In this document: positions 187 through 30,002 of the stretch, piece by piece
Position numbering within the stretch: position 1 is the stretch's first letter
Layout of the letters: each line of letters begins with the position of its first letter
DNA from: an uncultured Spirochaetales bacterium
Lineage (GTDB): Bacteria > Spirochaetota > Spirochaetia > Sphaerochaetales > Sphaerochaetaceae
Reading direction: 5' to 3'
Assembly (NCBI GenBank): GCA_902773355.1
Contig: CACYEI010000056.1
Location: 1-37,349, forward strand
DNA: 37,349 bases
Notes under the pieces: model-generated
What the model saw: only the letters and a program-made list of their open reading frames with translations
The model's database searches: none
What the model was told of the DNA's origin: nothing
Program-made: the position numbers and the translations under genes

Positions 187-191
187 TTGTT

Positions 192-6235: not shown

Positions 6236-7744
6236 TTAAGAATTTATATTGCGGATAGTTTTATGTGCTTTATCTATAGCTCGGGCTGGGCATACAATCC
6301 TGCATAAGTGGCAGCCTACACATTTACTTCCTATAAGTTTTGGTATTCTTTTTTCATTGTCAAAATTAATAGCCTGATGGCCTCCGTCCATGCATGAAAT
6401 ATAGCACCTGCCACATCCATTACATTTATCTAAATTAAAAACAGGGTAGGTTATGGTTTCTCTTTCTATAGTGTTATGGTTTACTACAGTTCTGGAAGAT
6501 AAACCTATAAGATCTTTTATACTGGATTTATCTGATGAAAGCAGATAGTTTTTTATGCCATCCAGTAGGTCTTCTATTATCCTATATCCATATTGCATTA
6601 CTGATGTGGTTATTTGAAGGCTGGAAGAACCAAGTAATATAAATTCCAGGGCATCTACCCATGATTCTATTCCGCCCATTCCGCTTATATGCATATCTTT
6701 CAGTTCTTCACATTTGGATAAATCTGAAATAAATCTTAGTGCAATAGGTTTGACAGCATGACCTGAATAGCCTCCTACTATAGTTTGCCCGTGTATTACA
6801 GGTTCTGCAGAGTAAGAATTTAAATTTACACCTGTAATTGAATTAATGGTGTTAATTGCAGCAATACCATTAGCTCCACCTTTTTTAGCAGCCAAAGCAA
6901 AAGGTATCATATCAGTTACGTTTGGAGTGAGTTTGGCCAGAATAGGAAGTTTTGTTCCTTTTCTAACAGCTCTGGTAAACCGTTCAATTAGTTCTTCTGA
7001 TTGCCCTATTGTAACCCCAAGTGATTCATTTTCCATGTTTGGACATGAGAAATTACATTCAATTACTGAAGCACCAGAATTTTCACTCTCAGAAGCTAAC
7101 ATGGTCCATTCAGCTTCATTTCTACCCATAATAGAAGAGATAATTATTTTATTAGGGTAGTTCTTAGTGAGATTTCTTATTATTTCCATATTTTCACTTA
7201 CACTTAAATTGGAAAGTTGCTCAATATTTTTGAAACCGCAAAAAGAATTTGCATGATTATGAATAGCAGAGAATCTGGGAGAGGCTTCATGTTGTGGAAA
7301 ATTACAGATTGTTTTTAAACTTGCACCTGCCCAGCCTTCTTCAAAAGCTCTACTACACATATCATAAGTACTTGAAACTACAGAAGAAGAGAGTAAAAAC
7401 GGATTTTCCAGTGGTATGCCACAGATTTCAGAAGATAAATCTATCTTATTGTTTTTATTGGTTTGGGGTTTATAATCCTGAGATTGTTTTTTTAAATCCG
7501 TGAATATGTTTTTAATCTCTACATGTCTATTTTTCTTTGATAATACACATGCTTTTTCACATGGTGCACTGCAGGTGGAACAATCATTGTTTTTAAGCTC
7601 TTTTATTCCACCTACAGCATTTTCAAAGTACAAACTACGGATTATTTTGGAAATTTTTATTCCTTTAGGACAAGCTTTTTCACATGGTCCGTTTAAACAT
7701 AGCATGCATCTGTTTACTTCAGATATATCATATATATTTTTCAT
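6236..7744 (-). CDS. preA: PreA-type dihydropyrimidine dehydrogenase-like protein with N-terminal Fe-S domain
   Basis: 502 residues. Residues 1-70 carry eight cysteines in two groups (C13, C16, C21, C25 and C55, C58, C62, C66), like the N-terminal Fe-S domain of dihydropyrimidine dehydrogenase (DPD) or PreT. Residues about 100-410 are a dihydroorotate-dehydrogenase-like FMN barrel with the DPD active loop (ECNFSCPN, the Cys corresponding to the general acid of DPD) and the substrate-binding INT motif. The C-terminus has two 4Fe-4S ferredoxin motifs (CNGCGRCYISC and CVGCHLCRIVCP). The FAD- and NADPH-binding domains between these parts in DPD are absent, and no PreT gene is adjacent. Expected chemistry is reduction of a pyrimidine or related ring; with ferredoxin-like input the donor is unknown. 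The start at 7744 has only a weak RBS. Confidence 0.85.
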   Translation of the reverse strand: MKNIYDISEVNRCMLCLNGPCEKACPKGIKISKIIRSLYFENAVGGIKELKNNDCSTCSAPCEKACVLSKKNRHVEIKNIFTDLKKQSQDYKPQTNKNNKIDLSSEICGIPLENPFLLSSSVVSSTYDMCSRAFEEGWAGASLKTICNFPQHEASPRFSAIHNHANSFCGFKNIEQLSNLSVSENMEIIRNLTKNYPNKIIISSIMGRNEAEWTMLASESENSGASVIECNFSCPNMENESLGVTIGQSEELIERFTRAVRKGTKLPILAKLTPNVTDMIPFALAAKKGGANGIAAINTINSITGVNLNSYSAEPVIHGQTIVGGYSGHAVKPIALRFISDLSKCEELKDMHISGMGGIESWVDALEFILLGSSSLQITTSVMQYGYRIIEDLLDGIKNYLLSSDKSSIKDLIGLSSRTVVNHNTIERETITYPVFNLDKCNGCGRCYISCMDGGHQAINFDNEKRIPKLIGSKCVGCHLCRIVCPARAIDKAHKTIRNINS

Positions 7745-12752: not shown

Positions 12753-14936
12753 ATGAAAAAAATGGATATAAATGATATTTCTACTGCTGTCAGACGAGTA
12801 GATGCTTTAGAAAAATGTAGTGGCACTGCTAAGTATGTAAGTGATTATGATTTTAATGATTGTCTGTGGTCTAAGATGATCCGTTCCTCCATCCCAAGAG
12901 GGATAATAAAAAATATAAGAATTCCAACACTGCCAGATGGGTATTTTTGGGTAGATTATAAAGATATTCCAAAAGGCGGAAAGAATTATTTGCATATGAT
13001 TGCTACTGACTGGAAATGTTTTGCAGAACATGATGTCAGATATACTGGAGAAACTATAGCACTGTTATGTGGTCCTGATAAAAAAATATTAGAAGATCTC
13101 TATAAGCAGGTAGAGATAGAATATGAAGAATTAGAACCTGCTGTAACTATAGATGAAGGTTTAAACTGTAAAGGTGGCGCATTTGTTAATGATAATAACA
13201 TACACTGTCACTTAAAACTTCAGGTAGGGGATGTTGACAGTGCTTTTAAGAAAGCTGACAGGATTGTTACAGAAACAATAGAAACAGGTTTTCAGGAACA
13301 TGTCTATTTAGAAACTAATGGTGCTTGCTGTAAAATAGAAAACAATAAATACGTGTTTTATGTTTCAGCTCAGTGTCCTTTTTATATAAGGAAGTCTATA
13401 GCTCCGTTATTAAATATTTCTCCTGATGAAATAATAGTAAAACAGACAGTCACAGGTGGTGCCTTTGGAGGAAAGGAGCACTTCCCTGATGTATTATGTG
13501 GCCCTCTCCTTGTAGCTGTTCATAAGATAGGAAAAGGTGTAAAACTTTTCTTTACCAGAGAAGAAGATATGGAAAATTCTGTAAAAAGGCATCCTTCTAA
13601 AGTTGTTTTCAAGACAGGATTAGATAAAAACGGAAATATTTTAGCAATGGAAAGTAAAGTTTACTATAATGCAGGAGGATATCTTTCTTCTTCATTTGTG
13701 GTGCTTCAGAGAGGTTGCTTCCATGTAAGTGGATGCTATGAATTTCCTAATTTTAGTTCAGAAGGGTTTGGCGTTGCTACAAATACATTTCCAAGCTGTG
13801 CATTTAGAGGTTTTGGTGCGCCGCAAACTTTATTTGCCATAGAAACACACATGTGTCATTTGGCTGAAATGCAAGGGTTAGATCCTTTAGAGTTCAAAAA
13901 ACGATACTTCATAAAAAAGGGTGGAATAACCAGTACAAATGGAAAAGTTGTAGAAGATGTAAAAATACCAGAAATGCTTAATCAGGTTCTGAAGACCTCT
14001 GATTACAAAAGAAAGGTAAAGCAATACGCATTAGGTTCTGGTAAAGGTATAGGTATTTCTTTTTACAATCATGGAGGTGCATTTACTGGTAACGGTGAAC
14101 AAGCCATTATAAAGGCTAAGTGTAAACTGAAAAAATATTCAAATGGAAAGGTGGAAATACTTTGTGGTCAGACAGAAATGGGACAGGGATTTAAAACCAT
14201 TTTACCTAAGATAGCAGCTAAGGTTTTAAATATTCCTTTAATAGATGTCATTTATAATAATCCTGATACATCAAAAGTTCCTGACAGTGGACCTACGGCT
14301 GCTTCAAGGTCAACTATGATAGTGGGAAAACTAGTTGAAAAAGCGGCTTTGCTGATGAAAGAAAGGTTTAACAAGGAAAAAGAGTTTGAAGTTGAAACTA
14401 GTTATGAACATCCTGAGGGATATGATTGGGATCAGGAAAATTTTCAGGGCTATGCCTATTTAGGTTATGGCTGGGGAGTGTGTGTTGTAGAAGTAGAAGT
14501 TGATCCTTGTACAGGAGAAGTTACAACAAAAGGTATTTGGTCATCCCATGATGCAGGACATCTTATAGATGAAAAAATAGTTCATGGACAGGTTAATGGT
14601 GGTGTTATCCAAGGTATAGGTTGGGCTTCTACGGAAGTTATGGAAAACATTAACGGATATTTTAAACAGAAGTCTATGAGTGACTACATTATACCTACAT
14701 CTATGGATTATCCGTCACAATATGTTGATTTTGTTGAAAATCCATATAAATGGGGACCTTTTGGAGCTAAAGGAATGGGAGAGCTGGTGTTTAATGGATC
14801 AGGTGCTGCATATATTGATGCTTTGTCTAGGGCTATAGGTAAAAGAATTTCTTCCATCCCCTGTCCTACAGAAAAAGTTATGGAATATATGCTGAATGGA
14901 AAAGATATAAAAGATAGTTTGAATATATGCAGGTAA
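12753..14936 (+). CDS. xdhA: Xanthine dehydrogenase-type molybdenum-binding subunit
   Basis: 727 residues, the length of separate XdhA-type Mo subunits. It hydroxylates a heterocycle at a pyranopterin-bound Mo centre. The N-terminus (RRVDALEKCSGTAKY) is the family opening. Mo-pterin motifs include GGAFGGKEHF, CAFRGFGAPQ with the substrate-positioning Arg, GQTEMGQGF and, near the end, GPFGAKGMGE, whose Glu is the catalytic base position. It leads a run of twelve close genes and is followed 3 bases later by the Fe-S subunit. It starts just after a TATAAT box and lacks a ribosome site; ATG 12762 is an alternative start. Substrate could be xanthine, hypoxanthine, nicotinate or another purine; the sequence does not decide. 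Confidence 0.92.
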   Translation: MKKMDINDISTAVRRVDALEKCSGTAKYVSDYDFNDCLWSKMIRSSIPRGIIKNIRIPTLPDGYFWVDYKDIPKGGKNYLHMIATDWKCFAEHDVRYTGETIALLCGPDKKILEDLYKQVEIEYEELEPAVTIDEGLNCKGGAFVNDNNIHCHLKLQVGDVDSAFKKADRIVTETIETGFQEHVYLETNGACCKIENNKYVFYVSAQCPFYIRKSIAPLLNISPDEIIVKQTVTGGAFGGKEHFPDVLCGPLLVAVHKIGKGVKLFFTREEDMENSVKRHPSKVVFKTGLDKNGNILAMESKVYYNAGGYLSSSFVVLQRGCFHVSGCYEFPNFSSEGFGVATNTFPSCAFRGFGAPQTLFAIETHMCHLAEMQGLDPLEFKKRYFIKKGGITSTNGKVVEDVKIPEMLNQVLKTSDYKRKVKQYALGSGKGIGISFYNHGGAFTGNGEQAIIKAKCKLKKYSNGKVEILCGQTEMGQGFKTILPKIAAKVLNIPLIDVIYNNPDTSKVPDSGPTAASRSTMIVGKLVEKAALLMKERFNKEKEFEVETSYEHPEGYDWDQENFQGYAYLGYGWGVCVVEVEVDPCTGEVTTKGIWSSHDAGHLIDEKIVHGQVNGGVIQGIGWASTEVMENINGYFKQKSMSDYIIPTSMDYPSQYVDFVENPYKWGPFGAKGMGELVFNGSGAAYIDALSRAIGKRISSIPCPTEKVMEYMLNGKDIKDSLNICR

Positions 14937-14939
14937 TAT

Positions 14940-15422
14940 ATGATTAAGGATATTGATTTTATTTTAAATGGGAAAAAAGTCACTATTAAAGTGAATCCGC
15001 TTTCCAGGCTTTTGGATGTATTAAGAGATAATCTTAATTGTAAAGATGTAAAAGAAGGTTGTTCTGAAGGAGAATGTGGAGCTTGTTCAGTGTTACTTGA
15101 TGATAGAATTGTAACTTCTTGTTTGATTCCAATAGGTGCAGTTCAGAATCATGAAATAAAAACATCTAATTATGTTACAAGTACAGAAAAAGGTAAAATA
15201 ATAGCAGAGGCTTTTGCTGATGGTGGTGCAGTCCAATGTGGTTTTTGTATACCTGGCATGATTATTGCGGCTTATGATTTGCTTTCAAGAAACAGTAATC
15301 CAACTGAAGAAGAAATAAGATTAGGAATAAGTGGAAATATTTGCAGATGCACTGGCTATGATTTGATTGTTTCAAGCATAAGACTTGCTGTAGAGAGAGG
15401 TGGAGACATATGGAAAAAATAG
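14940..15422 (+). CDS. xdhC: Molybdenum hydroxylase 2Fe-2S subunit
   Basis: 160 residues, the normal size of the small Fe-S subunit. The plant-ferredoxin-like N-terminal domain binds the first 2Fe-2S cluster through CSEGECGAC and a fourth Cys in TSCLIP. The helical C-terminal domain binds the second cluster through QCGFC and NICRCTGY. All eight ligands are present. It passes electrons from the Mo centre to the FAD subunit. It overlaps the next gene by 13 bases, a sign of translational coupling. It is the only intact Fe-S subunit in an operon that holds two Mo subunits, so it may serve both. Confidence 0.94.
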   Translation: MIKDIDFILNGKKVTIKVNPLSRLLDVLRDNLNCKDVKEGCSEGECGACSVLLDDRIVTSCLIPIGAVQNHEIKTSNYVTSTEKGKIIAEAFADGGAVQCGFCIPGMIIAAYDLLSRNSNPTEEEIRLGISGNICRCTGYDLIVSSIRLAVERGGDIWKK

Positions 15423-16330
15423 ATTGTTATATCCCTGAAACTTTACAGGAAGCGTTGGAAATCTTACACAGAGAAGATGTTATTATTTTGGCTGGGGGTT
15501 CAGATCTTATGGTATTTCATAAAAATGAACCTTCTCTTATACCTGAATTTGAAAAAAGTGTAATGATTATAAGAAATTTGAACGAACTTAAAGGCATACG
15601 GATTAATTCCAACGGGGAATGTGAAATAGGTGCTTTATGTACAAGTAATGAAATAGCAGAAAGTACTATTGTTCCATGGCATTTAAGACAGGCTGCTTCC
15701 AGAATGGGGGCAGTAGGGTTAAGAAATAGTGCCACAATAGGAGGAAATATAGCAAATGCCAGTCCTAAAGGAGATATGCCAGGTCCATTATATTTATTGG
15801 ATGCAAGAGTTAAACTCACATCTTTAAATGGATCCAGAGAGATGTTGGTTTCTGATTTTATCATTAAGTTTAAATCCATAGATTTAAAAAAGGACGAACT
15901 TATTACCAAAATCATTATCCCATATTCAGAAAGAGATTTTGATTATATTTTCTGGCACAAGGTTGGTACTAGAAAATCAAATGCCATCAGTAAAATTACT
16001 GTAGGTATGGCATTAAAATTTGCAGAAGATGAAATTGTAAAAGATTTTAGATTATCTGCAACTTCAACGGGTGCTAAAACTAATAGAAACAGAGATGTGG
16101 AAAATTTATTGATTGGAAGTAAAATAACTGAGGAAAATATCAGTAGGGTAATAGAAGCATTTGATCAGGTCATTTCTCCACGTGCCATGCCAGTTTTTAG
16201 ACGTGAATCTACAAAAAGAATGATTAGACGTTTTCTTTCTCAGTGTTTATTACATCCAGAAAGTAGAGTAATAGACACTTATGATTCATATTATGTGCCA
16301 GGATCTCCAAAACCTGTTTTCAATATTTAA
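15410..16330 (+). CDS. xdhB: Molybdenum hydroxylase FAD-binding subunit
   Basis: 306 residues, matching the FAD subunit of XdhABC-type enzymes (CO-dehydrogenase flavoprotein family). FAD-binding motifs are ILAGGSDLM (residues 26-34) and ATIGGNIANASPKGD, which contact the pyrophosphate and the isoalloxazine region. The C-terminal domain is complete. It takes electrons from the Fe-S subunit and reduces NAD+ or another acceptor. The start lies inside the preceding gene, with GGTGGAGA as its ribosome site. Confidence 0.92.
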   Translation: MEKIDCYIPETLQEALEILHREDVIILAGGSDLMVFHKNEPSLIPEFEKSVMIIRNLNELKGIRINSNGECEIGALCTSNEIAESTIVPWHLRQAASRMGAVGLRNSATIGGNIANASPKGDMPGPLYLLDARVKLTSLNGSREMLVSDFIIKFKSIDLKKDELITKIIIPYSERDFDYIFWHKVGTRKSNAISKITVGMALKFAEDEIVKDFRLSATSTGAKTNRNRDVENLLIGSKITEENISRVIEAFDQVISPRAMPVFRRESTKRMIRRFLSQCLLHPESRVIDTYDSYYVPGSPKPVFNI

Positions 16331-16355: not shown

Positions 16356-17186
16356 ATGGAAGAAAAAAAATTAATTATAGCAAAATCAATAACTCAGGCT
16401 GTTAAGCTAAAGGACAAAGATAGTACGTTTCTTTCTGGAGGGACAGAAATAAACAGATTGGGTTCCTTGGTAAATGTGAATAATCTGATAAGTATAAAAA
16501 AACTTTTTTTGAATGAAATATCTTTAGCAAAACTAGAAGAGAAAGATGGTAAGCACCATGAATATGTAAAAATTGGGGCAGGTGCTACGTTTCAGAGTAT
16601 GATAGAATCTGAAATTGTGCCAGATTATTTAAAAACTGCGTGCTATTTTATGAGTAGCAGAACTAAGCGTAATATGGCAACAATAGGAGGAAATGTAGCA
16701 TTACTTAGAGATGATTCTTACTTACTACCAACATTACTTGCTTCTGATTCAAAACTGGAATTTTCTACTGGTAGAATTATCAATTTGGACAATTACCTTA
16801 TTGATAATGATAAATACAAAGATAATTTAATTGTATGTTTTTATGTAAATTCCAAAACATTTGTTTCTTCAAAAAGATATTCAAATACTGCAGCATCTCA
16901 TGCAGTAATAACCATGTCTGTTGGTTGGAGTAGGAAAAACGGATTTAAAGTTTCATTAGCTTTAAAAAATTCAGGTGTTTATGTTTTTCCTGAATTAGCA
17001 GAATTTATGGATGCCAATTTAAGAAGTACTGAAACAGAATTTTTAAATCATTTTAAAAGCACTAAAGATTTTAGAATCAAAGATGATATGTACGGAAGTG
17101 CTGACTATAAACGCTATCTTTTAGGTATAACATGTTTTGATTTAACTAATGCTGTTAAAACAATGAGAGAGGAGGTGAAAAAATGA
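16356..17186 (+). CDS. ygfM: Second FAD-binding subunit, YgfM type
   Basis: 276 residues, homologous to the FAD subunit just upstream but divergent. FLSGGTEINR (about 26-35) and ATIGGNVALLRDDSY correspond to the two FAD motifs; the usual Ser-Pro-x-Gly-Asp after the second motif is replaced, as I recall for the E. coli YgfM class. It is followed, with a 4-base ATGA overlap, by the XdhD-type enzyme, the same pairing as ygfM-xdhD in E. coli. A GAAGGAG site precedes its ATG. It probably forms the flavin partner of XdhD, though weaker or altered flavin binding cannot be excluded. Confidence 0.82.
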   Translation: MEEKKLIIAKSITQAVKLKDKDSTFLSGGTEINRLGSLVNVNNLISIKKLFLNEISLAKLEEKDGKHHEYVKIGAGATFQSMIESEIVPDYLKTACYFMSSRTKRNMATIGGNVALLRDDSYLLPTLLASDSKLEFSTGRIINLDNYLIDNDKYKDNLIVCFYVNSKTFVSSKRYSNTAASHAVITMSVGWSRKNGFKVSLALKNSGVYVFPELAEFMDANLRSTETEFLNHFKSTKDFRIKDDMYGSADYKRYLLGITCFDLTNAVKTMREEVKK

Positions 17187-20059
17187 TCAACTGTAAAGTT
17201 AATGGTAAAGTTTGTAGCTTTAACGTAGATCCTGCCATTACTCTTAGAGATATGCTTTTTTATAATGGCTATAGGTCGGTCAGGGATTCTGATGATGGTG
17301 AAGGTTTTTGTGGAAGTGACACAGTATTATTAAATGGTATACCAGTGTATGCAAACTTAGTTTTAGCAGGAGAAGTGGAAGAGTGTGAGATTTTAACTGC
17401 AGAAGGTTTAGGAGATTCCTCCCATTTAAGTATAGTACAGAAAGCATTGATAGATGCAGGGGTAGTTCAAAGTGCTTATAACTCACCAGCAACAGCACTT
17501 CTTTTAACATGGCTTTTAGAAAGAAATCCAGATCCAACAAAGGAAGATATTAAAGATGTTCTAAGCGGTATTTTTATACGTGATGCAGGATATGAACACT
17601 ATTATTTAGCCGTGAAACTTGCCAGAGATAAGATTAGGTATGGTACATATAGAACTAAAATTTCTCCAACATTTAGAAGTGATTTGGATATAATAGGTAA
17701 ACCTAGTGCCAAGATAGATGGAGCTAATCTAATTACTGCTGAAAAATCCTATGTAGAGGATTTTGTAGATAAAGATACATGTTATCTGGTTGTTTTAAGA
17801 AGTCCTCACGCTAGTGCATATATAAAGAGTATTGATGTTTCAAAAGCATTAAATGTAGATGGGGTTATAGAAATTTTAACTGCTTTTAACACTCCTGAAA
17901 CGTATTATATGCAGGCTGGACAGGGAAATCCTGAGCCTTCTCCTCATGATAGAAGACTTTTTAATATGAAAGTTAGGCATGTGGGAGATAGAGTTGCAGG
18001 GATAATAGCAGAAACTAAGGAAGCAGCTGAAAAAGCCAGAGATTTAATTAAAGTTGAGTATGAGGTTCTTCCTGCTGTCTTTACCGTGGAAGATGCCATG
18101 GCAGAAGGTGCCCCTTTAGTACACAATGGTATAGTTGAATATAAAACAGGTGCACCTGAAGATTTGAATTTGTACAATAAAAAAGCAGGGGATAAGAGGG
18201 AAGGTAAGGTTATTTACCAATTCCCTTTACATGCTGATATCAGAAAAAACATAGCAGCTTCCAATAAAGGTGAAATTGGAGATGTTGAAAAGGCTTTTTC
18301 TGAGGCTGATGCCATAGTTGAAAATACTTATCAGACAACACAAATTCAGCACACTCCACTTGAAACACACATATGTTATGCAAAAATGGAAGCAGGTAGA
18401 TTGGTAGTATATGCTTCTACACAAGTTCCATATCATGTTAGACGAATTGTGAGTTGGGTTACTGGTCTATCAGAGAATAAGATTCATATAATTAAAACTA
18501 GAGTTGGTGGTGGTTACGGAAGCAAGCAGGATATTTTACTTGAAGATTTGACAGCGTATGCTTCTTTTGTAACCAAAAGACCTGTTCTATGCCATTACAC
18601 TAGAGAAGAAGAATTTATTGCTTCTTCTACACGTCATCCTATGAGAGTTCATGTTAAAATTGCGGGGAAAAAAGATGGAAGTATTACCGCTATATATATG
18701 GAAGTTTGTGCTAATACTGGTCCATATGGTAATCATTGTCTTACTGTGCCAATGAATAGCTGTTCTAAAACATTACCTTTATTTAAGTGTGATAATATGA
18801 AGTATGATCTTAAGGTCTATTATACAAATACACCTCCAGCTGGTGCTTATCAGGGCTATGGTACTCCTAAGGGAACATATGGTCTTATGATGGCAGTCTC
18901 AGAATTAGCTGAAAAATTAAATGTTGATTATAAAGATATGATATTGAAAAATCATGTAGAAGAAGGATACATGCTTGAGATACTAAAGGGATTAGGAGAA
19001 GGCAGAGAAGGTGCAGTGGTTCCTGTAGGTTCTTGTGGGTTAAGAGAAGCTATTCTTCAGGGCTGTGACATGATTCAATGGGGTAAGAAAGTTAAGACAG
19101 AAGATCCAGATTGGAAGATTGGTAAAGGTTTTGCTATGATTATGCAGGGCTCAGGACTTCCTGGATTGGATCATAGTGAGGCTATAGCTAAACTTGAAAC
19201 AGATGGTTCTTTAATTATCAATAGCGGTGGAGCAGATATAGGTACAGGTTTAGATACTATTTCAGCTAAAATTGCAGCAGAAGTATTAAAAATGTCTTTA
19301 GATAGGATTACCGTAATATCAGGGGATACAGATTCATGTGTTTTTGATACTGGTTCATATGCTTCTTCTGGTACTTTCTTTAGTGGAAATGCTTCACTTT
19401 CTGCAGTAAATAATTTAAAAGAATATATTTTGGATGAAGCTGCTTATCAATTAAATGAAAGCAAAAAACATTTAGTTTTAATTGCACCAGGAGCTGTTCA
19501 ATCTTCTAAGACAGGTAAGATATTAACTTATGCTGAATTATCACATAATGCCTGTTCAGGTAGTGGATACGGTCAGCTGGTTGCTCATGGAGTTTTTACA
19601 ACTAAGGCTTCATCTGTTCCGTATGGGGCTCATTTTGTACAATTAGCTGTAAATATACGTACAGGAGAAATAAAAATACAGAAGTTTTATGCTTTACAGG
19701 ATGCAGGAACACCAATTAATCCTGAAATTGCACTCTGTCAGATGTATGGTGCAGTAATGAAATCTATAGGGCACACTCTTTATGAAAATATGATTTTGGA
19801 CAAAAAAGGCAAATGTATAAATGCAAATATGACTGATTATGGTGTACCTATGATAAATGAAGCACCTGAAGATTTTAAGTGTGTTCTTATAGATGTAAAT
19901 GATAAATACGGACCATTTGGTGCTAAATCTATTTCTGAGATAGCATGTAATGGTGCTGCACCAGCTATAGGAATAGCTATTCATGATGCTATAGGCGTGT
20001 GGATTAATTCATGGCCTATGACACCAGAGAAAATATTAAAAGCATTGGGAAAAATCTAA
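17183..20059 (+). CDS. xdhD: Selenium-dependent molybdenum hydroxylase, XdhD/YgfN type
   Basis: 958 residues. Residues 1-160 have the fold of the two-domain 2Fe-2S module but only Cys43 remains of the eight ligands: positions 38, 46 and 58 are Asp, Asp and Asn, and 97, 100, 132 and 134 are Ser, Asn, Ile and Asp. Residues about 165-958 are a full Mo-hydroxylase domain: SPHASAYIKSIDVSKA, VGGGYGSKQDI, GAYQGYGTPKG, GGADIGTGLDT and the terminal GPFGAKSISEIACNG with the catalytic Glu. Length and the degenerate N-terminus match E. coli XdhD as I remember it. GGAGGTGA gives it the strongest ribosome site of the operon. In the SDMH system these enzymes carry a labile Se ligand on Mo; purine hydroxylation is the usual assignment. 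Confidence 0.9.
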   Translation: MINCKVNGKVCSFNVDPAITLRDMLFYNGYRSVRDSDDGEGFCGSDTVLLNGIPVYANLVLAGEVEECEILTAEGLGDSSHLSIVQKALIDAGVVQSAYNSPATALLLTWLLERNPDPTKEDIKDVLSGIFIRDAGYEHYYLAVKLARDKIRYGTYRTKISPTFRSDLDIIGKPSAKIDGANLITAEKSYVEDFVDKDTCYLVVLRSPHASAYIKSIDVSKALNVDGVIEILTAFNTPETYYMQAGQGNPEPSPHDRRLFNMKVRHVGDRVAGIIAETKEAAEKARDLIKVEYEVLPAVFTVEDAMAEGAPLVHNGIVEYKTGAPEDLNLYNKKAGDKREGKVIYQFPLHADIRKNIAASNKGEIGDVEKAFSEADAIVENTYQTTQIQHTPLETHICYAKMEAGRLVVYASTQVPYHVRRIVSWVTGLSENKIHIIKTRVGGGYGSKQDILLEDLTAYASFVTKRPVLCHYTREEEFIASSTRHPMRVHVKIAGKKDGSITAIYMEVCANTGPYGNHCLTVPMNSCSKTLPLFKCDNMKYDLKVYYTNTPPAGAYQGYGTPKGTYGLMMAVSELAEKLNVDYKDMILKNHVEEGYMLEILKGLGEGREGAVVPVGSCGLREAILQGCDMIQWGKKVKTEDPDWKIGKGFAMIMQGSGLPGLDHSEAIAKLETDGSLIINSGGADIGTGLDTISAKIAAEVLKMSLDRITVISGDTDSCVFDTGSYASSGTFFSGNASLSAVNNLKEYILDEAAYQLNESKKHLVLIAPGAVQSSKTGKILTYAELSHNACSGSGYGQLVAHGVFTTKASSVPYGAHFVQLAVNIRTGEIKIQKFYALQDAGTPINPEIALCQMYGAVMKSIGHTLYENMILDKKGKCINANMTDYGVPMINEAPEDFKCVLIDVNDKYGPFGAKSISEIACNGAAPAIGIAIHDAIGVWINSWPMTPEKILKALGKI

Positions 20060-20817
20060 TGAAATTAATTACGGCTCTAACTGAGCGTTATAGCTGTAAT
20101 CATGTTTTTATTAGTGTAATAGGAAGCGGAGGAAAGACAAGTCTTATAAAACTTCTTTCTTCCGAATTTTCACACCTAGGTAAGTCCGTTTTAATTACTA
20201 CTACAACTAAAATTCAAAGTCCCTTTTTTTTTGATTGGGGAACAAACCTTGTTACAGATGATTTAAATATGGTAAAAAAATTGGTTACTAAAAGTTTATA
20301 CAATAAAATAGCTGTTTTATATGCATTAAAGTCTGATTCTTCTGAAAAATGGTGTGCTCCAAATTTTAATGATTTAAATGACCTGAAAAACTATTATGAT
20401 GTAATTTTATGTGAAGCAGATGGAGCTAAAGGTTTCCCTTTAAAAATACATACAGAAAAAGATCCAGTAATCTTATCTTTCAGCAATTTTACTATTGCGG
20501 TAATGGGAGTTTGGGCGTTAGGTTTAAAAATTAAAGATTCAATTTTTGGCTATAAACCTTATATAGAAAGGAATTATAAAAGTGAAGATGATATTGTAGA
20601 TATTGATATAATTAAGGAATATATAAATAATCCAGATGCCTTAATTAAAGGTCTGAACGTTAATGATTTGATACTGGTAAATGGGATAGATGTTTTTAAA
20701 AACAAGGAAGAAAAGATTAGTATGTTTAAAAATTTGTTTACTGATAATATGCAAAATTATATAAACAATATTCTCTTATGTAGTATAAAAGGAGATTATG
20801 GTAACTGGTTATGCTAG
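20059..20817 (+). CDS. yqeC: YqeC, selenium-dependent hydroxylase accessory protein
   Basis: About 252 residues from the ATG that overlaps the xdhD stop (TAATG); a frame extending 16 codons upstream lies inside xdhD. A P-loop-like GSGGKTSLIKLL is near residue 26, followed by a switch-like TTTTKIQSP and an EADGAKGFPLKIH motif characteristic of the YqeC family. The family is confined to genomes with selenium-dependent molybdenum hydroxylases and is taken to help insert or process the selenium-modified cofactor. The exact reaction is not established. yqeB follows with a 7-base overlap. Confidence 0.88.
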   Translation: MKLITALTERYSCNHVFISVIGSGGKTSLIKLLSSEFSHLGKSVLITTTTKIQSPFFFDWGTNLVTDDLNMVKKLVTKSLYNKIAVLYALKSDSSEKWCAPNFNDLNDLKNYYDVILCEADGAKGFPLKIHTEKDPVILSFSNFTIAVMGVWALGLKIKDSIFGYKPYIERNYKSEDDIVDIDIIKEYINNPDALIKGLNVNDLILVNGIDVFKNKEEKISMFKNLFTDNMQNYINNILLCSIKGDYGNWLC

Positions 20818-21620
20818 GTGATTATATACATAATACATTAATAATTATTAGAGGCGCAGGAGATATAGCATCAGGTTGTGCTGTAAGATTATATAAAATT
20901 GGTTTCCCAATAATAATGTTAGAAGTTCCTGAACCCTTGGTTGTGCGCCGAACAGTTTCTTTTGCTCAAGCTATAATGTCAGAAACAGTAGAAATTGAGG
21001 GTATAAAAGGAATGAAGTGCAGTTTTGAAAGTGCTTTAAGTACCGCAAAAAATGGTATTGTTTCAGTTGTTATAGATCCGAATGCTTCTCTAATTGATTA
21101 TTTAAAACCTGAGATAGTAATAGATGCAATAATTGCAAAAAAGAATTTTGGAACAAGCAGAAACATGGCTGATTTTACCATAGCATTAGGGCCAGGATTT
21201 TATGCAGGTAAAGACGTAGATGCAGTAATAGAAACAATGCGTGGACACACCTTGGGTAGAGTAATTTATAAAGGTGAAGCTATAGCAAATACTGGTATAG
21301 CTGGTATGGTGGGGGGGTACTCAGTGGAAAGAGTTTTGCATGCTGACCATAAGGGTGTTTTCCATGCGGTTAAAAAAATAGGTGATTTAGTAGAACAAGG
21401 TCAGATAGTAGGTTATGTAGATTCTACACCTGTAGTAGCCAAAATCTCAGGTAAATTAAGAGGTTTATTAGCAGATGGTTTAACTGTAGGAGGTAGTTTT
21501 AAGGTTGGAGATATAGATCCTAGGGGAAATGAAATTGATCATAATACCTGTTCAGATAAGGCTTTTGCAGTAGCTGGTGGTGTATTAGAAGCCATATTTA
21601 CTTATCTATCAAAAAAATAG
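20811..21620 (+). CDS. yqeB: YqeB, selenium-dependent molybdenum cofactor maturation protein
   Basis: 269 residues. The N-terminus has an XdhC/CoxI-like Rossmann motif (IIRGAGDIASGCAVRLYKIGF in part), then the YqeB-specific region with RRTVSFAQAI, DFTIALGPGF and GHTLGRVIYKG. A C-terminal biotinyl-lipoyl-like or sandwich region follows (VEQGQIVGYVDSTPVVAKISG). YqeB is one of the two marker proteins of the SDMH trait and is thought to act on the Mo cofactor, by analogy with XdhC-type sulfuration chaperones. It overlaps yqeC by 7 bases and is followed by a cysteine desulfurase-like gene that could supply S or Se. Confidence 0.9.
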   Translation: MLGDYIHNTLIIIRGAGDIASGCAVRLYKIGFPIIMLEVPEPLVVRRTVSFAQAIMSETVEIEGIKGMKCSFESALSTAKNGIVSVVIDPNASLIDYLKPEIVIDAIIAKKNFGTSRNMADFTIALGPGFYAGKDVDAVIETMRGHTLGRVIYKGEAIANTGIAGMVGGYSVERVLHADHKGVFHAVKKIGDLVEQGQIVGYVDSTPVVAKISGKLRGLLADGLTVGGSFKVGDIDPRGNEIDHNTCSDKAFAVAGGVLEAIFTYLSKK

Positions 21621-21626
21621 GGTAAA

Positions 21627-22784
21627 ATGAAGAGAATTTATTTAGATAACTGTTCTACATCTTATCCAAAAGCCCCAGAGCTTGGAAAACATATTTCACA
21701 TTACATAGATAATTTAACGTTGAATTTTAACAGAACCTCAAGTAGATATAACATAGAGAATTTTGGTTTTCTTTTTGATTTAAGGCAGTTATTATGTACT
21801 TTGTTTCACTATAATCATCCAGAATGTGTTATTTTTACAAAAAATATTACAGAAAGTTTAAACTTATTGATAAAAGGTTATTTAAATAAAAATGATCATG
21901 TAATTATTTCAGCATTAGAGCATAATTCTGTTGTAAGACCGTTAAATCAGATTGGTGTTTCTTATACTGTTATTCCTTGTAATGAATTTGGATTTTCTAA
22001 AATTGGTGAAATTGAAAAAATTATCAATAAAAGAACTAAGGCTTTTATAATTAATGTAGCTAGTAATGTTTTTGGAACAGTTCAGGATATAAAAGGAATA
22101 TCTGAAATAGCTAATTACCATCATATTCCTCTAATATTGGATACCGCACAAAGTACACCTTATGTTGATATTGATATGGAATCTCTTCATGTTAGTGCCT
22201 TAGCTTTTACAGGGCATAAAGGATTGTTAGGACCACAGGGAACAGGTGGATTTATAATTGATAAGGATTTTTCAGATAAGGTTTCTCCATTAATAGTTGG
22301 AGGAACGGGCAGTATAAGTTCATCAGAAGTGCAGCCAAATTTTCTTCCTGATAAATACTCATCTGGAACAGAAAATATGCCTGGATTATATGGTTTGAAT
22401 TACAGTCTAAAATATATTATGGAAAATCTTTCCAAAATAAGAATTAAAATTAACTCTATAACTGAACTATTATTAGATGAATTAAAAAAAATAGAAGAAA
22501 TTAGAATAGTTGGACCAAATAGGGATATGGATAGAATAGGTGTTGTATCCATAGTATCTTCAGGTTCTTCAGATAAAAAAAATGGTGATATATCTTCTCT
22601 CTCAGATTTTTTGATGGAGAATAATATAGAAAGTAGAGTTGGATTACATTGTAGTCCTCTGGCACATAAGGCATTAGGAACCTTCCCCTCTGGCACATTG
22701 CGGTTTTCTCCTGGTTTCTATACTGAAGAAGATGATATATACTACCTTTGTTCAAAAATCAAATTATTTTATAATTCACTTTAA
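21627..22784 (+). CDS. Class V PLP enzyme: cysteine desulfurase/selenocysteine lyase-like
   Basis: 385 residues of the SufS/CsdB group. The PLP-binding lysine is Lys198 in TGHKGLLGPQGTGG; the phosphate-contacting histidine and aspartate lie in SALEHNSVVRP and LDTAQSTPYVD. The persulfide/perselenide cysteine is Cys342 in GLHCSPLAHK, followed by the FPSGTLRFSPG substrate-carboxylate loop. It would release sulfur or selenium from Cys or Sec. Its place between yqeB and yedE indicates it feeds selenium to SelD or to the Mo cofactor. Its ribosome site is weak (AGGGTAAA) and the gap to yqeB is 6 bases. Confidence 0.9.
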   Translation: MKRIYLDNCSTSYPKAPELGKHISHYIDNLTLNFNRTSSRYNIENFGFLFDLRQLLCTLFHYNHPECVIFTKNITESLNLLIKGYLNKNDHVIISALEHNSVVRPLNQIGVSYTVIPCNEFGFSKIGEIEKIINKRTKAFIINVASNVFGTVQDIKGISEIANYHHIPLILDTAQSTPYVDIDMESLHVSALAFTGHKGLLGPQGTGGFIIDKDFSDKVSPLIVGGTGSISSSEVQPNFLPDKYSSGTENMPGLYGLNYSLKYIMENLSKIRIKINSITELLLDELKKIEEIRIVGPNRDMDRIGVVSIVSSGSSDKKNGDISSLSDFLMENNIESRVGLHCSPLAHKALGTFPSGTLRFSPGFYTEEDDIYYLCSKIKLFYNSL

Positions 22785-22795
22785 GGAGTTTATAA

Positions 22796-23884
22796 ATGAA
22801 TAATGGTAGATTTTTTACAAAAGATAGAACATCTCTCATTTTAGGTGGGTTTATTATTGGTATTATATCTGTAGTTCTAGTCTTACTTGGAAATCCAAAA
22901 AATATGGGATTTTGCATTGCGTGCTTTATAAGAGATATATCGGGTTCTTTATATCTTCATAATGCCTCTCCAGTCCAATATATAAGACCTGAGATATTAG
23001 GTTTGGTTATTGGTTCATTTATCATTAGTATTTTCTCTGGCGAATTCAAATCTTATGGAGGCTCCAGCCCAATTTTGAGGTATTTTATTTCTGCTATGGT
23101 TATGATTGGAGCCTTAGCCTTTTTAGGTTGTCCTTTTAGGATGATTTTAAGACTTTCTGCAGGAGATTTAAATGCATTAATAGGTTTTGTGGGTTTTATT
23201 TTAGGTATTAGTGTGGGATGTTTTTTCTTGAATAAAGGGTTTAATTTAGGAAGGTATCATGAACAGAATGTGTTAAATGGTTGCACTTTACCGCTAGTAA
23301 ATATAGTCCTTTTGGCTTTAGCAGTGTTTTTACCAACTCTTTTCATATCTTCAGCTTCAGGTCCTGGTTCTATGCATGCTCCAATAATATATTCACTATT
23401 GGCAGGTTTATTGGTAGGGATTATTTCTCAAAAAACAAGATTATGTATGGCAGGTGGCATCAGGGATATAGTTTTAATTAAAGATAGCACCTTAATCAGC
23501 GGTTTTATAGCTATTTTTGTTTCTTCTCTTATTATGAACTTAGCTACTGGAAATTTTAAGTTGGGCTTTTCAGGTCAACCAGTTGCTCATACAGCATGGT
23601 TCTGGAATTTAATGGGTATGTTTATAGTTGGTTTGGGATCAGCTTTACTTGGTGGTTGCCCCCTAAGACAGTTGATATTAGCAGGCACAGGTAATAGTGA
23701 TTCAGCCATAAGTGTATTAGGCATGCTTACTGGTGCAGCTTTTGCTCATAATTTTGGTTTAGCAGGTGTAGCTGGAACAGATTATGGCTTGAATATGAAA
23801 GGTAAAATAGTAGTTGTTTTTTCAGCTCTTATTTTATTGATAATAGGTTTTGTAGTTACTTTTGTGAAAACAGAAAAGAAATAA
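22796..23884 (+). CDS. yedE: YedE-type selenium metabolism membrane protein
   Basis: 362 residues with about nine to ten membrane helices. YeeE/YedE hallmarks are present: MGFCIACFIRD near the N-terminus, GCPFRMILRL, RLCMAGGIRD and GGCPLRQLILAGTGNSDSA. In E. coli and other genomes YeeE/YedE proteins carry thiosulfate or related species; the selenium branch sits next to yedF and selD. The conserved cysteines line the predicted path of the chalcogen. AAGGAG precedes the ATG. It is likely the importer or membrane relay that supplies selenium for this operon. Confidence 0.9.
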   Translation: MNNGRFFTKDRTSLILGGFIIGIISVVLVLLGNPKNMGFCIACFIRDISGSLYLHNASPVQYIRPEILGLVIGSFIISIFSGEFKSYGGSSPILRYFISAMVMIGALAFLGCPFRMILRLSAGDLNALIGFVGFILGISVGCFFLNKGFNLGRYHEQNVLNGCTLPLVNIVLLALAVFLPTLFISSASGPGSMHAPIIYSLLAGLLVGIISQKTRLCMAGGIRDIVLIKDSTLISGFIAIFVSSLIMNLATGNFKLGFSGQPVAHTAWFWNLMGMFIVGLGSALLGGCPLRQLILAGTGNSDSAISVLGMLTGAAFAHNFGLAGVAGTDYGLNMKGKIVVVFSALILLIIGFVVTFVKTEKK

Positions 23885-23940
23885 TCTTAAAATCATATGT
23901 TTTAAATTTATAATCTGGTAAATATGGAGTTAATTTTGGT

Positions 23941-24153
23941 ATGTTGTTAAAAGAACTTAATTTAAGAGGTTTAAGTTGTCCTATTCCTGTTTTACAGGTA
24001 AAAAAAGGATTAAAAGATAATCCAGAAGGTTTGATTGTTTATGTGGATAATATAGCTGCATGTGAAAATATAACCAGATTTTCACAGACTACTGGGTATA
24101 ATGTTGATACAAAGGAAAAAGACAAGGAATGGATATTAAAAATCAGCAAATGA
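23941..24153 (+). CDS. yedF: TusA/SirA-like sulfur (selenium) carrier, YedF N-terminal type
   Basis: 70 residues, one TusA-fold domain. The carrier cysteine lies in GLSCPIPVLQVKKGL (CPxP motif, residues 13-16). Full YedF proteins of selenium operons have a second DsrE-like domain of about 100 residues; here only the TusA part is present and a separate DUF3343 gene follows. It probably receives Se or S as a per-chalcogenide from the cysteine desulfurase-like enzyme or from YedE. It overlaps the next frame by 25 bases if that starts at 24129. Confidence 0.85.
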   Translation: MLLKELNLRGLSCPIPVLQVKKGLKDNPEGLIVYVDNIAACENITRFSQTTGYNVDTKEKDKEWILKISK

Positions 24154-24377
24154 TTTTAATCACTTTTTTTTCTCAATACTATGCTTTTTTGTTAAAACAA
24201 ACCTTAAAAGACAGGTGTACTTTAAAATCAGTACCTAGAAGTCTTTCTTCTTCATGTGGTATCTGTGCTTTAATTAATGAAGAAGATTTTCCATCTATTA
24301 ATGTTTTCTCTGATAATATTGATAGAGTATTTTATATCAATGATAATAAGTATGAGGAGATAATATGGAAGAAGTGA
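24129..24377 (+). CDS. DUF3343 small protein of selenium operons
   Basis: 82 residues. The family is the putative Se/S carrier-like DUF3343 group that neighbours yedF and selD. The opening strand ILITFFSQYYAFLLKQTL and the Cys pair in SSSCGICALI fit. ATG 24129 has an AAAGGA 12 bases upstream; ATG 24150, which overlaps the TusA stop as ATGA, is the alternative and would remove seven residues. It overlaps selD by 13 bases. The CxxC arrangement suggests it binds or passes a chalcogen, but this is inference. Confidence 0.78.
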   Translation: MDIKNQQMILITFFSQYYAFLLKQTLKDRCTLKSVPRSLSSSCGICALINEEDFPSINVFSDNIDRVFYINDNKYEEIIWKK

Positions 24378-25393
24378 AACTTACAAGCATGGTAAAAACA
24401 AGTGGATGTGCCGCTAAGTTACCACCTGATAAACTACACAGTATAATAGACAGTCTACCTATAATGAAATCAAAAAAATTGATTCAAGGTTTTGAAACAG
24501 CTGATGATGCACTAGTCTATTCTATTGATGATGAAAATGTTTGCGTTCAGACTGTGGATTTCTTTCCTCCTATGGTAGATGATCCTTATATTTTTGGTCA
24601 GGTTGCAGCTGCAAATGCTCTTTCAGACATATATGCCATGGGTGGTAAACCTGCGGTAGCTTTGAATCTTATGTGTTTCCCTTCCTGCCTAGACTTATCC
24701 GTAATGAAAGATATCCTTTTAGGTGGTATGGATAAGGTAAAAGAAGCGGGGGCTGTAATTGCAGGTGGGCATACCATAGAAGATCCAATACCCAAATATG
24801 GATTGTGTGTGACTTCATTCATGAAAAAAAACTGTGTAATTACTAACAGTGGAGCTAAACCTGATAATTATATTGTTTTAACTAAAGCTTTAGGTGCAGG
24901 TATTATAAATACTGCTGCTAAAGTAGATGAAGCTTCAGAAAGCAGTAAGAAAGATGTGATTAAATCCATGACTACATTAAATAAAAAATCCATGGAATTA
25001 TCTTTAAAATATAAGGTCTATGCCTCTACAGATGTTACAGGTTTTGGTCTTATTGGACATTTAAGTGAAGTGGCTAAGGCATCAGGTGTGTCTATATCTA
25101 TTGATACAAAAAAATTACCTATTTTAGAAGGAGCGTTAGAACTAGCCAGGTTTGGTTTTTTACCAGAAGGCAGATATTCTAATGAGATATATATAAAAAA
25201 TGAGGTAAATTTTCAGAGTAATATTAGTAGAGAAGTAATAGATATATGTTATGATCCTCAGACCAGTGGTGGTTTGTTATTGTTTATGGATGAAAGTGAT
25301 GCAGAAAAATATGTTAGTACATTTAATGATGATTGTTGTAAAATAATTGGTAAGGCTACTAAAAAAGATAAAAAGTTACTTTATTTTTTTTAG
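24365..25393 (+). CDS. selD: Selenophosphate synthetase SelD
   Basis: 342 residues. It makes selenophosphate from selenide and ATP. The glycine-rich N-terminus carries the catalytic pair Cys15 and Lys18 in TSGCAAK; the codon for Cys15 is TGT, so this is the Cys form and not the selenocysteine form. The ATP/Mg motifs are TADDALVY, QTVDFFPPMVDDPY with the conserved aspartates, NALSDIYAMGGKP and GGHTIEDP. The C-terminal half has TDVTGFGLIGHL and CYDPQTSGGLL. GAGGAGA lies just before the ATG. It closes the SDMH operon. Without selA, selB or a Sec tRNA in view, its product most likely serves the Mo hydroxylases. Confidence 0.96.
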   Translation: MEEVKLTSMVKTSGCAAKLPPDKLHSIIDSLPIMKSKKLIQGFETADDALVYSIDDENVCVQTVDFFPPMVDDPYIFGQVAAANALSDIYAMGGKPAVALNLMCFPSCLDLSVMKDILLGGMDKVKEAGAVIAGGHTIEDPIPKYGLCVTSFMKKNCVITNSGAKPDNYIVLTKALGAGIINTAAKVDEASESSKKDVIKSMTTLNKKSMELSLKYKVYASTDVTGFGLIGHLSEVAKASGVSISIDTKKLPILEGALELARFGFLPEGRYSNEIYIKNEVNFQSNISREVIDICYDPQTSGGLLLFMDESDAEKYVSTFNDDCCKIIGKATKKDKKLLYFF

Positions 25394-27402: not shown

Positions 27403-28536
27403 TTAAAATACACTCATATCTTTAAAGCCTATTCCAGTTATAAGTACACATACTTTTTTATTTAGTGCTTTACTGTCTTCTTTTAAGCATGCATATGCTG
27501 TACTAGATGCTGGTTCTGCAAAAATGCCAGCCATTTTACAAAGTTCCCTTTGAGCGTTCAATATCTTTTTATCAGAAACTGTAATGCATCTTCCACCATA
27601 CTGTTTTAAGTATTTAACAGCCATTCTTCCACATGCTGGACTATCAACTGATATTGAATCTGCAACCGTATTAGCGTTAATATTTTCAAACTTATTGTCA
27701 TTAAACGCTTTAGAAATGGCATTAGAGCCTTCTGACTGACAGCAAATTATTTCTGGAACTTTTTCAATTAACCCAGCATTCAGTAAATCTATAAATCCTT
27801 TATAAACACCTGAAATTATGCATCCATCTCCTACTGGAACATAAATAGAATCTGGAAGATTTTTATTAAAATCATTATAAAGTTCAATACTTACTGATTT
27901 TTTCCCTTCTATAGTCATGGGATTAAATGCTGTGTTTCTGTTTAAAAGTCCTTTTTCTTTAGAATATTTTATTGACATAAGATAGGCTTCATCATAGTTT
28001 CCATCAATTGGAATAACATTTGCACCGTATAAGATACTTTGTTTTAATTTGTTTTCAGGTGCTGATTTAGGAATAAATAAAGTTATATTTAAACCATAGC
28101 TTGCTCCTGCACAACTCATGGAAGCCCCTGCATTACCAGTAGAAGCCAAAACTATATCTTTTTGCTTAAAATGAATGGCCTGCGCCACTATTAACTGGCT
28201 AGCTCTGTCTTTAAAAGATCCTGAAGGTAAAAGACTGTCCATTTTAAAATAAACTTCACTGGCACTAACTAGTTCAGATATTCTTTCAGATCTAATAAGT
28301 GGCGTGTTCCCCACTGGAAAAACTCTGTAATCTGGCAGAACATATGGGCTGAAGTCTTTATAGTATATTTTATCTTTTTTAGAAAGTTTTTTTAAATATG
28401 AATCATCAATAATAACTTCTAGATAACCTTTAGGAAAAAAACTTGTTGCCTCACTGTTACAGTGAGGACAAGTGTATGTTATTTTTTCAGATTCAAATTC
28501 GTAATTACAATCTACACATCTATAGTGGAACTTCAT
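27403..28536 (-). CDS. Threonine synthase-like PLP enzyme with N-terminal zinc ribbon
   Basis: 377 residues of PLP fold type II. Cys7, Cys10, Cys23 and Cys26 form a zinc-ribbon-like N-terminus. Lys109 in SGSFKDRAS is the PLP lysine; the phosphate-binding glycine-rich turn is STGNAGASM and VPVGDGCIISGVYKG. This is the architecture of class II threonine synthases, which turn O-phosphohomoserine into threonine. No homoserine genes are nearby, so a different substrate is possible. It overlaps the upstream PLP gene by 4 bases (ATGA) and meets the TroR-like gene tail to tail with only 5 bases between, with no visible terminator. Confidence 0.78.
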   Translation of the reverse strand: MKFHYRCVDCNYEFESEKITYTCPHCNSEATSFFPKGYLEVIIDDSYLKKLSKKDKIYYKDFSPYVLPDYRVFPVGNTPLIRSERISELVSASEVYFKMDSLLPSGSFKDRASQLIVAQAIHFKQKDIVLASTGNAGASMSCAGASYGLNITLFIPKSAPENKLKQSILYGANVIPIDGNYDEAYLMSIKYSKEKGLLNRNTAFNPMTIEGKKSVSIELYNDFNKNLPDSIYVPVGDGCIISGVYKGFIDLLNAGLIEKVPEIICCQSEGSNAISKAFNDNKFENINANTVADSISVDSPACGRMAVKYLKQYGGRCITVSDKKILNAQRELCKMAGIFAEPASSTAYACLKEDSKALNKKVCVLITGIGFKDMSVF

Positions 28537-30002
28537 GCTTTTACTTCTTTATTGAATTCTTCTATAAGTGTATCTATTTTATCAGCCATAGCAGGTAAAC
28601 TCTTCCAATAGTTTCTATCATACCACTGTGCATTTAGTTCAGCTATAGTTTTACCTTGCTGTTCTATCCATGTATAGTATTTAAGATTATGGATTCTTAA
28701 CCTGTCATAATAGGTAAGCTCTAACGTATTATCAATATCCTGATGAAGCAGGCTTCCACTATGAACTGCAACAGCATCTTTATATGTAAATGCACCATTC
28801 TGAGCGTTAAGTTCTTCAAGTCTAGACTTATACATGGAGCTGGAATCTGTTAAAACGGTAAAGACTGCATCATCTTCATCCATCTGATAGTATTTAGCCA
28901 TTTTAATAGCAGAAAGAACGTTTGCAATTCCTGAAATACCATAAAGTTGTAGGTCTTCTATTTGTTTATCTGATAATTGAACTTCATTTTTAAGATAGTT
29001 TATACCTTCATTTTCATTAAATAATCTGAAAATCCTCATACAGTCTTCATCATCTATACTGGTAATCATATCCGTATTTTTTACATTATGAATCCATGGT
29101 ACATGCTTATCTCCAATACCTTCTATTCTGTGTCCACCAAAACCATTCCTTAAGAGAGTAGGGCACTGTAAGGCTTCAGAGGCTCCTATCTTAAGATTAG
29201 GATATGTATCTTTTAATTTATCTCCAGCAGCTAAAGTTCCGCCACTTCCAGTGGCAGAAACATAACCACGTATATTGTCTGTCTTTATATTAAGTTTCTT
29301 TATGACTTCTAATATAGCTTCTCCAGTTACAGTATAATGCCAAAGGTAGTTTTCAAACTGTTCAAACTGATTAAAGATTACTATATGGTTTCCTCTTGTG
29401 GCATTAAGTTCATGACATTTGTCAAATATTTCCTTTACGTTAGATTCACATCCAGGAGTAGCAATTATCTCTCCAGCTACAGTTTTTAACCAATTAAAAC
29501 GTTCCTGAGACATTTCCTCTGGAAGAATTGCTATAGACTGGCATCCTAATAAAGCCGAATTATAAGCTCCCCCTCTGCAGTAGTTACCAGTTGAAGGCCA
29601 AACTGCCTGCTGATTCAAAGCATCAAAATTACCTGTAACCAGTGCAGGTGCTAAACATGAATATGTAGCCCCAACCTTATGAACACCACATGGAAAATAT
29701 TTACCAACCAAAGCAAAAATTCTGGCTTTAGTACCAGTAAGTTTTTTTGGTATTTCAATAAAATTTACACCGCCAAATCTACCACCTGTTTCAACTGGTT
29801 CATTATGCCATGTAATCCTGAACAGATTTACAGGATCAACATCCCAAAGACCTGTGCGTTTTAGCTTCTCTTTTATGGACACAGGAACAGTGGCAGGGTT
29901 TATCATATTTTTAAATGTAGGAAGAATAATTCCTTTTTCTCTACAAACCTGAATATTTGTTTCTCTTATTTTTTTCTTTTTGTTTAAATTGATTAAATTC
30001 AT
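28533..30002 (-). CDS. PLP-dependent fold-type II enzyme (cysteine synthase superfamily), function unassigned
   Basis: 489 residues, about 150 more than CysK or a typical cystathionine beta-synthase catalytic domain. The PLP lysine is probably Lys109 in FPCGVHKVGATYS; PSTGNYCRGGAYN and SATGSGGTLAAGD are substrate and phosphate loops. About 60 residues precede the core and about 100 follow it, and the C-terminal region (WYDRNYWKSLP) is not seen in standard cysteine synthases. I recognise it as a member of a long, poorly characterised branch found in anaerobes, not as a defined enzyme. ACGGAG precedes the ATG. It leads a two-gene operon with the threonine synthase-like protein, hinting at consecutive beta/gamma-replacement or elimination steps. 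Confidence 0.75.
   Translation of the reverse strand: MNLINLNKKKKIRETNIQVCREKGIILPTFKNMINPATVPVSIKEKLKRTGLWDVDPVNLFRITWHNEPVETGGRFGGVNFIEIPKKLTGTKARIFALVGKYFPCGVHKVGATYSCLAPALVTGNFDALNQQAVWPSTGNYCRGGAYNSALLGCQSIAILPEEMSQERFNWLKTVAGEIIATPGCESNVKEIFDKCHELNATRGNHIVIFNQFEQFENYLWHYTVTGEAILEVIKKLNIKTDNIRGYVSATGSGGTLAAGDKLKDTYPNLKIGASEALQCPTLLRNGFGGHRIEGIGDKHVPWIHNVKNTDMITSIDDEDCMRIFRLFNENEGINYLKNEVQLSDKQIEDLQLYGISGIANVLSAIKMAKYYQMDEDDAVFTVLTDSSSMYKSRLEELNAQNGAFTYKDAVAVHSGSLLHQDIDNTLELTYYDRLRIHNLKYYTWIEQQGKTIAELNAQWYDRNYWKSLPAMADKIDTLIEEFNKEVKA

Follow-up and report, generated by a model that had tools for sequence, protein, structure and literature searches.

Gut bacteria begin the anaerobic breakdown of uric acid with XdhD; the pathway was reported in 2025 and has been put forward for gout treatment. 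In that work, the Escherichia coli enzyme converts urate to yanthine with reduced nicotinamide adenine dinucleotide (NADH) and is accompanied through purification by a ~30 kDa protein that is putatively YgfM (PMC12507026), and an AlphaFold3 model of the XdhD-YgfM pair has high confidence (PMC12990295). Electrons are currently pictured as passing from NADH through YgfM to molybdenum (Mo), but the E. coli enzyme has no means of forming the usual iron-sulfur (Fe-S) relay. The missing XdhD cluster ligands go unmentioned in the main text of the 2025 report (which lacks the word 'cysteine' and names Fe-S for YgfK; PMC12507026) and in the available text of a commentary (PMC12990295). Here, we describe an XdhD encoded on contig CACYEI010000056.1 of an uncultured Spirochaetales bacterium (the whole 37,349-nucleotide stretch analysed is called the window). 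By family the protein is a predicted urate reductase, an activity demonstrated for E. coli XdhD. Its N-terminal domain (N-domain) probably descends from the two-cluster domain found in the xanthine oxidase family, without its cofactors, a state that became fixed a single time in a large urate-reductase subclade that includes E. coli, and would act as a scaffold for YgfM in an enzyme with a non-relay electron route.

The xdhD gene (positions 17183..20059, + strand) encodes 958 amino acids and matches TIGR03313 (molybdopterin-dependent oxidoreductase Mo/Fe-S-binding subunit) with 1203 bits (cut-off 1101.9), the match covering positions 3-951 of the 951-position profile. Pfam matches above cut-off to MoCoBD_1, MoCoBD_2 and Ald_Xan_dh_C show that the Mo domains of the xanthine oxidase family are present, and Fer2_2 is also matched although the ligands are missing. 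Residues 1-150 (17183..17632, + strand) make up the degenerate N-domain, a beta-grasp plus helical [2Fe-2S] fold without cluster ligands. The translation of 17183-17660 was aligned to the intact eight-Cys [2Fe-2S] small subunit belonging to a second enzyme in the same window, an ordinary xanthine dehydrogenase (XDH) (14940..15422, + strand), which serves as an internal control, and a single Cys, Cys43, was found at the eight ligand columns, as the initial annotation had held. That annotation had read Asp38 as the first ligand column; eight-Cys XdhDs, with C-x5-C-x2-C spacing, are a closer reference than XDH small subunits with C-x4-C-x2-C, and since XdhD has one extra residue between the first two ligands, the column is Asp37.

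Residues at the eight columns (all + strand), tallied across 92 cluster-less homologues, are nearly fixed. At the Fe/S II columns stand Asp37 (17291..17293; the first Fe/S II cysteine, Asp in 92/92), Asp46 (17318..17320; Asp 92/92) and Asn58 (17354..17356; Asn 84/92), together with Cys43 (17309..17311) in a freely variable column (C 42, A 40, T 8, S 1, V 1). The Fe/S I columns hold Ser97 (17471..17473; Ser 90/92), Asn100 (17480..17482; Asn 92/92), Ile132 (17576..17578; Ile 84/92) and Asp134 (17582..17584; Asp 92/92). Two [2Fe-2S] clusters on eight Cys mark the xanthine oxidase family; the window XdhD retains 1/8 of these ligands and translated E. coli K-12 XdhD 0/8, a more complete loss than the similarly degenerate start that the initial annotation had ascribed to the latter. 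The RefSeq/NCBI label "Mo/Fe-S-binding subunit", given to XdhD in L009 and E. coli records, is misleading, the E. coli protein being without cluster ligands.

Without column 43, the seven replaced columns are 97% conserved across the 92 sequences, compared with 70% for the entire N-domain, and random sets of seven N-domain columns are rarely conserved to the same degree (p about 0.00025). The ratio of nonsynonymous to synonymous substitution rates (dN/dS) in the N-domain is 0.016-0.10 between close cluster-less pairs. At the level of sequence, the cluster-less N-domain is thus under purifying selection, and its near-invariant replacements and low dN/dS indicate a maintained sequence rather than decay. 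Fer2_2 is still matched by 41/41 cluster-less homologues. An AlphaFold2 model of the window XdhD (mean predicted local distance difference test score [pLDDT] 82.9, predicted template modelling score 0.85) is confident in the N-domain apart from the former Fe/S II loop at residues 37-41 (pLDDT < 50); its best PDB match, which extends along the entire chain, is D. gigas aldehyde oxidoreductase, also a single-chain protein (template modelling score 0.86 by target length). Column conservation, predicted fold and dN/dS thus bear out the claim of a loss that preserves the domain. Glu606, proposed to orient urate (PMC12507026), is invariant in cluster-less and eight-Cys forms in a 17-sequence alignment. 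As separate observations, the cluster-less N-domains of Lachnospiraceae and other Clostridia XdhDs (L070, L071, L075, L088, L089, L090) carry an insertion of ~40 residues at window residues ~76 to ~82, and at L069:4326-7240 xdhD is split over two reading frames inside the N-domain, by a frameshift or assembly error.

XdhDs were gathered from a Spirochaetota search, a public genome scan, one Spirochaetota family and plasmid records; the public scan comprised the 80 best matches, so the sample is biased towards the window protein's own neighbourhood. In all, 109 XdhDs were compared, 92 cluster-less (from Spirochaetota, Bacillota, Chloroflexota and E. coli) and 17 with all eight Cys (including Cetobacterium and one Spirochaetota clade), with no intermediates among them. 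The L010 lineage adds five more XdhDs without clusters. The eight-Cys group includes homologues that score above the family cut-off, are ~50% identical to the window XdhD and lie in equivalent operons; the eight-Cys XdhD of Cetobacterium somerae has the C-x5-C spacing. The initial annotation had suggested that the loss may be a class property, and had named eight-Cys members of the same clade as evidence to the contrary. Such members exist, so fixation across the whole clade falls and fixation within the cluster-less subclade stands: judged from these sequences, ligand loss is a class property only of a large derived subclade and not of all XdhD.

A tree of the N-domain, built with the eight Cys columns removed, places all cluster-less rows in one clade (support 99/98) and the eight-Cys XdhDs in another (98/81), with XdhD N-domains together and apart from XDH small subunits (100/98). 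Every outgroup small subunit has eight Cys, which makes the loss the derived state, and the simplest account would be one loss from an eight-Cys ancestor. A swapped-in XDH small subunit as the source of the eight-Cys N-domain was ruled out, since that domain groups with XdhD N-domains and has the XdhD C-x5-C spacing. Several independent losses, at which a tree of the catalytic domain hints, were likewise not adopted, the N-domain tree giving one loss.

The only constant neighbour of xdhD is YgfM, which adjoins it in 46/46 long loci. In the window, a ygfM-like gene for a flavin adenine dinucleotide (FAD)-binding subunit (16356..17186, + strand) overlaps the xdhD start by 4 bases at its stop; its best family is TIGR03312 at 100 bits, under the 241.5 cut-off, and FAD_binding_5 is matched above cut-off. 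The predicted fold is intact (pLDDT 93.6), matching FAD subunits of CO dehydrogenase and glyceraldehyde oxidoreductase. Some cluster-less loci contain the ygfM-xdhD pair alone within the DNA fetched. The AGGT and ATIGGN motifs are retained in YgfM partners of both XdhD forms, and column 181 (window YgfM numbering) separates them: Asp in 18/18 eight-Cys partners, replaced, mostly by Ser, in 82 cluster-less partners, where the filter left room for Asp in fewer than 10% of the 82. Matched by motif and by eye, this segment appears to be the flavin-near loop of mammalian xanthine oxidoreductase (XOR), in which Asp428/429 tunes FAD (PMC3509653, PMC4832347); an altered FAD subunit fits an altered donor site. 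Apparent fusions of YgfM to eight-Cys XdhD in long open frames (L014/L018) were discarded, their extra residues being out-of-frame translation of GC-rich DNA.

E. coli XdhD is active and has no ligand Cys, and therefore works without the canonical relay. That the N-domain is a cluster-free scaffold is very probable: it would be a rigid element keeping YgfM against the Mo subunit, its two former cluster sites occupied by a conserved polar core. Electrons would then pass from NADH to the FAD of YgfM and on to Mo, bypassing the Fe/S I - Fe/S II relay, with the FAD-to-Mo step either a slow long-range transfer or helped by a remodelled FAD-Mo approach; that YgfM forms the only route is a tentative proposal, somewhat short of an even chance. 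The broader proposition, that widespread active Mo hydroxylases, that of E. coli included, have dropped the family-defining Fe-S relay and reduce urate via a polar cluster-free spacer, with an FAD subunit changed to match, we regard as evenly balanced.

Several points weigh against this interpretation. Direct FAD-to-Mo transfer over the canonical spacing would be very slow. In mammalian XDH the centres are known to follow one another as Mo - Fe/S I - Fe/S II - FAD, and the rat XOR mutants Cys43Ser and Cys51Ala are insoluble or monomeric (PMC3509653), so that cluster loss is structurally non-trivial. The published yanthine assay used 10 uM enzyme with no rates reported in its text (PMC12507026), and the accessible published accounts of the E. 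coli enzyme contain no Fe, FAD or kinetic data for XdhD. In the catalytic-domain tree, the eight-Cys clade lies among cluster-less lineages, with E. coli and L010 nearer to it, and a single cluster-less clade is marginally tolerated and not rejected by the approximately unbiased test (p = 0.087).

The best-surviving alternative, though unlikely, is that the N-domain is a cluster-free dock at which an external ferredoxin, flavodoxin or Fe-S flavoprotein (UacF/AegA, YgfK) binds and feeds Mo directly, akin to the dock for another electron carrier put forward in the initial annotation. Removal of internal clusters would be sensible once an outside donor takes over, earlier work connected AegA and UacF with formate-linked urate breakdown in E. 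coli (cited in PMC12507026), and YgfK is present in 18/18 of the XdhD genomes checked, among them that of the window. However, no ferredoxin- or flavodoxin-type gene is a constant xdhD neighbour in the 46 long loci, and purified XdhD with its ~30 kDa partner sufficed for yanthine formation with NADH (PMC12507026). YgfK is as common with eight-Cys XdhD, and operons with ygfK, ssnA, ygeY, ygfM and ygeW contain either form alike. The Fe-S Cys of YgfK are all retained in both groups, which makes the loss specific to XdhD and not part of a general iron-saving trend; a compensating Fe-S gain in YgfK was looked for and not seen, the ligands being unchanged between groups. The YgfK of the window's own genome (L173, G000:C68) is itself short, ~940 amino acids compared with ~1,030-1,080 in relatives.

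Less probable still is that Asp37/Asp46/Asn58 and Ser97/Asn100/Asp134 form new sites for a metal ion or other cofactor with a role in electron relay or in fold stability. Four columns are invariant Asp/Asn in 92/92 sequences across four phyla, exceeding what a gap-filler needs; the same conservation is equally explained by hydrogen-bonded packing, and the low pLDDT of loop 37-41 makes its geometry unreadable. A redox-neutral hydroxyl transfer, in which hydroxylation of one purine would reduce Mo and dehydroxylation of urate would re-oxidise it with no need for outside electrons, is very improbable. It is consistent with the missing relay, and the published assay text states no control without NADH (PMC12507026), but YgfM with its FAD motifs is always retained, net urate reduction is reported with NADH, and the proposal loses ground because xanthine stays unconsumed in an E. 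coli xdhA deletion with XdhD still present (PMC12507026). Simple decay of a domain that no longer has a use, or an artefact of assembly or alignment, is suggested at first glance by the visible loss of a known motif and can be set aside given the same pattern in 92 sequences, the near-invariant replacements, the low dN/dS and the presence of the XdhD stretch in 5,130/5,426 E. coli genomes.

The lack of the normal relay in the E. coli enzyme implies an uncharted electron route or else an unrecognised partner. Because ligand-bearing and ligand-free forms occur in equivalent operons, the two possibilities can be put directly to the test, with consequences for the engineering of urate-degrading probiotics.

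Around the ygfM-xdhD pair, the window holds a complete ordinary XDH upstream, with a Mo subunit (12753..14936, + strand; profile matches) and an FAD subunit (15410..16330, + strand) flanking the small subunit given above. YgfK and SsnA were found above cut-off in the window's genome, which places a urate-degradation context there, though spread over separate contigs. Directly downstream of xdhD lies a selenium-cofactor maturation cassette (20011..25393, + strand) of YqeC, YqeB, a class V aminotransferase (cysteine desulfurase/selenocysteine lyase-like), a YedE selenium transporter, a putative 70-amino-acid TusA-like open reading frame (ORF), an 82-amino-acid ORF and SelD. YqeB is a maturation factor for selenium-dependent Mo enzymes, and the maturation genes for a selenium-dependent Mo hydroxylase (YqeB, YqeC and SelD) are all in the genome. 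Among 29 Spirochaetota genomes, YqeB occurs in 15/15 cluster-less and 9/14 eight-Cys genomes (three of the nine only in pieces); these genomes are related, so a tie of the selenium cofactor to cluster loss is only a lead.

Elsewhere in the window, 27403-28536 and 28533-30002 (both - strand) encode two pyridoxal phosphate (PLP)-dependent enzymes, threonine synthase-like and cysteine synthase-like, under every NCBIfam cut-off. In the eight-Cys clade (L119-L122), urate-degradation operons include homologues of both (~41% and ~55% identical), and a ~73% identical homologue of the second adjoins ygfK in L124 and L129; the pair may substitute for the diaminopropionate lyase YgeX. A PreA-like dihydropyrimidine dehydrogenase subunit with an extra N-terminal Fer4_20 and a C-terminal Fer4 (6236-7744, - strand), adjoining a galactose-type ATP-binding cassette transporter, is possibly a pyrimidine reductase or a UacX-like enzyme. 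A transfer-messenger RNA gene lies at 191-564 (- strand), with the tag AKKEDDYSEAEEELALAA.

Compared with known systems, the window locus is closest to E. coli XdhD-YgfM (TIGR03313/TIGR03312), with which it shares the full-length family match, ~51% identity, a cluster-less N-domain, the ygfM neighbour, and YgfK and SsnA in the genome; it differs in keeping Cys43 at a ligand column, where E. coli has none, and in its SelD and selenium-cofactor cassette. Eight-Cys XdhDs (Cetobacterium somerae; Spirochaetota L014, L018, L023, L024, L130-L139) share the family, the family spacing C-x5-C and a urate-degradation operon with ygfM, but have all eight ligands and a YgfM partner that retains the loop Asp; instead of YgfK, Cetobacterium encodes a 4Fe-4S protein resembling dihydroorotate dehydrogenase close by. 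XdhABC, R. capsulatus XDH and bovine XOR share the Mo domains, hammerhead domain, FAD subunit and N-domain fold and, unlike the window XdhD, have Fe/S I and Fe/S II as an electron relay. The D. gigas aldehyde oxidoreductase (MOP, 1SIJ) is likewise a single chain, with an N-terminal two-cluster-type domain followed by molybdenum cofactor domains; it differs from the window XdhD in carrying both clusters and in lacking an FAD subunit.

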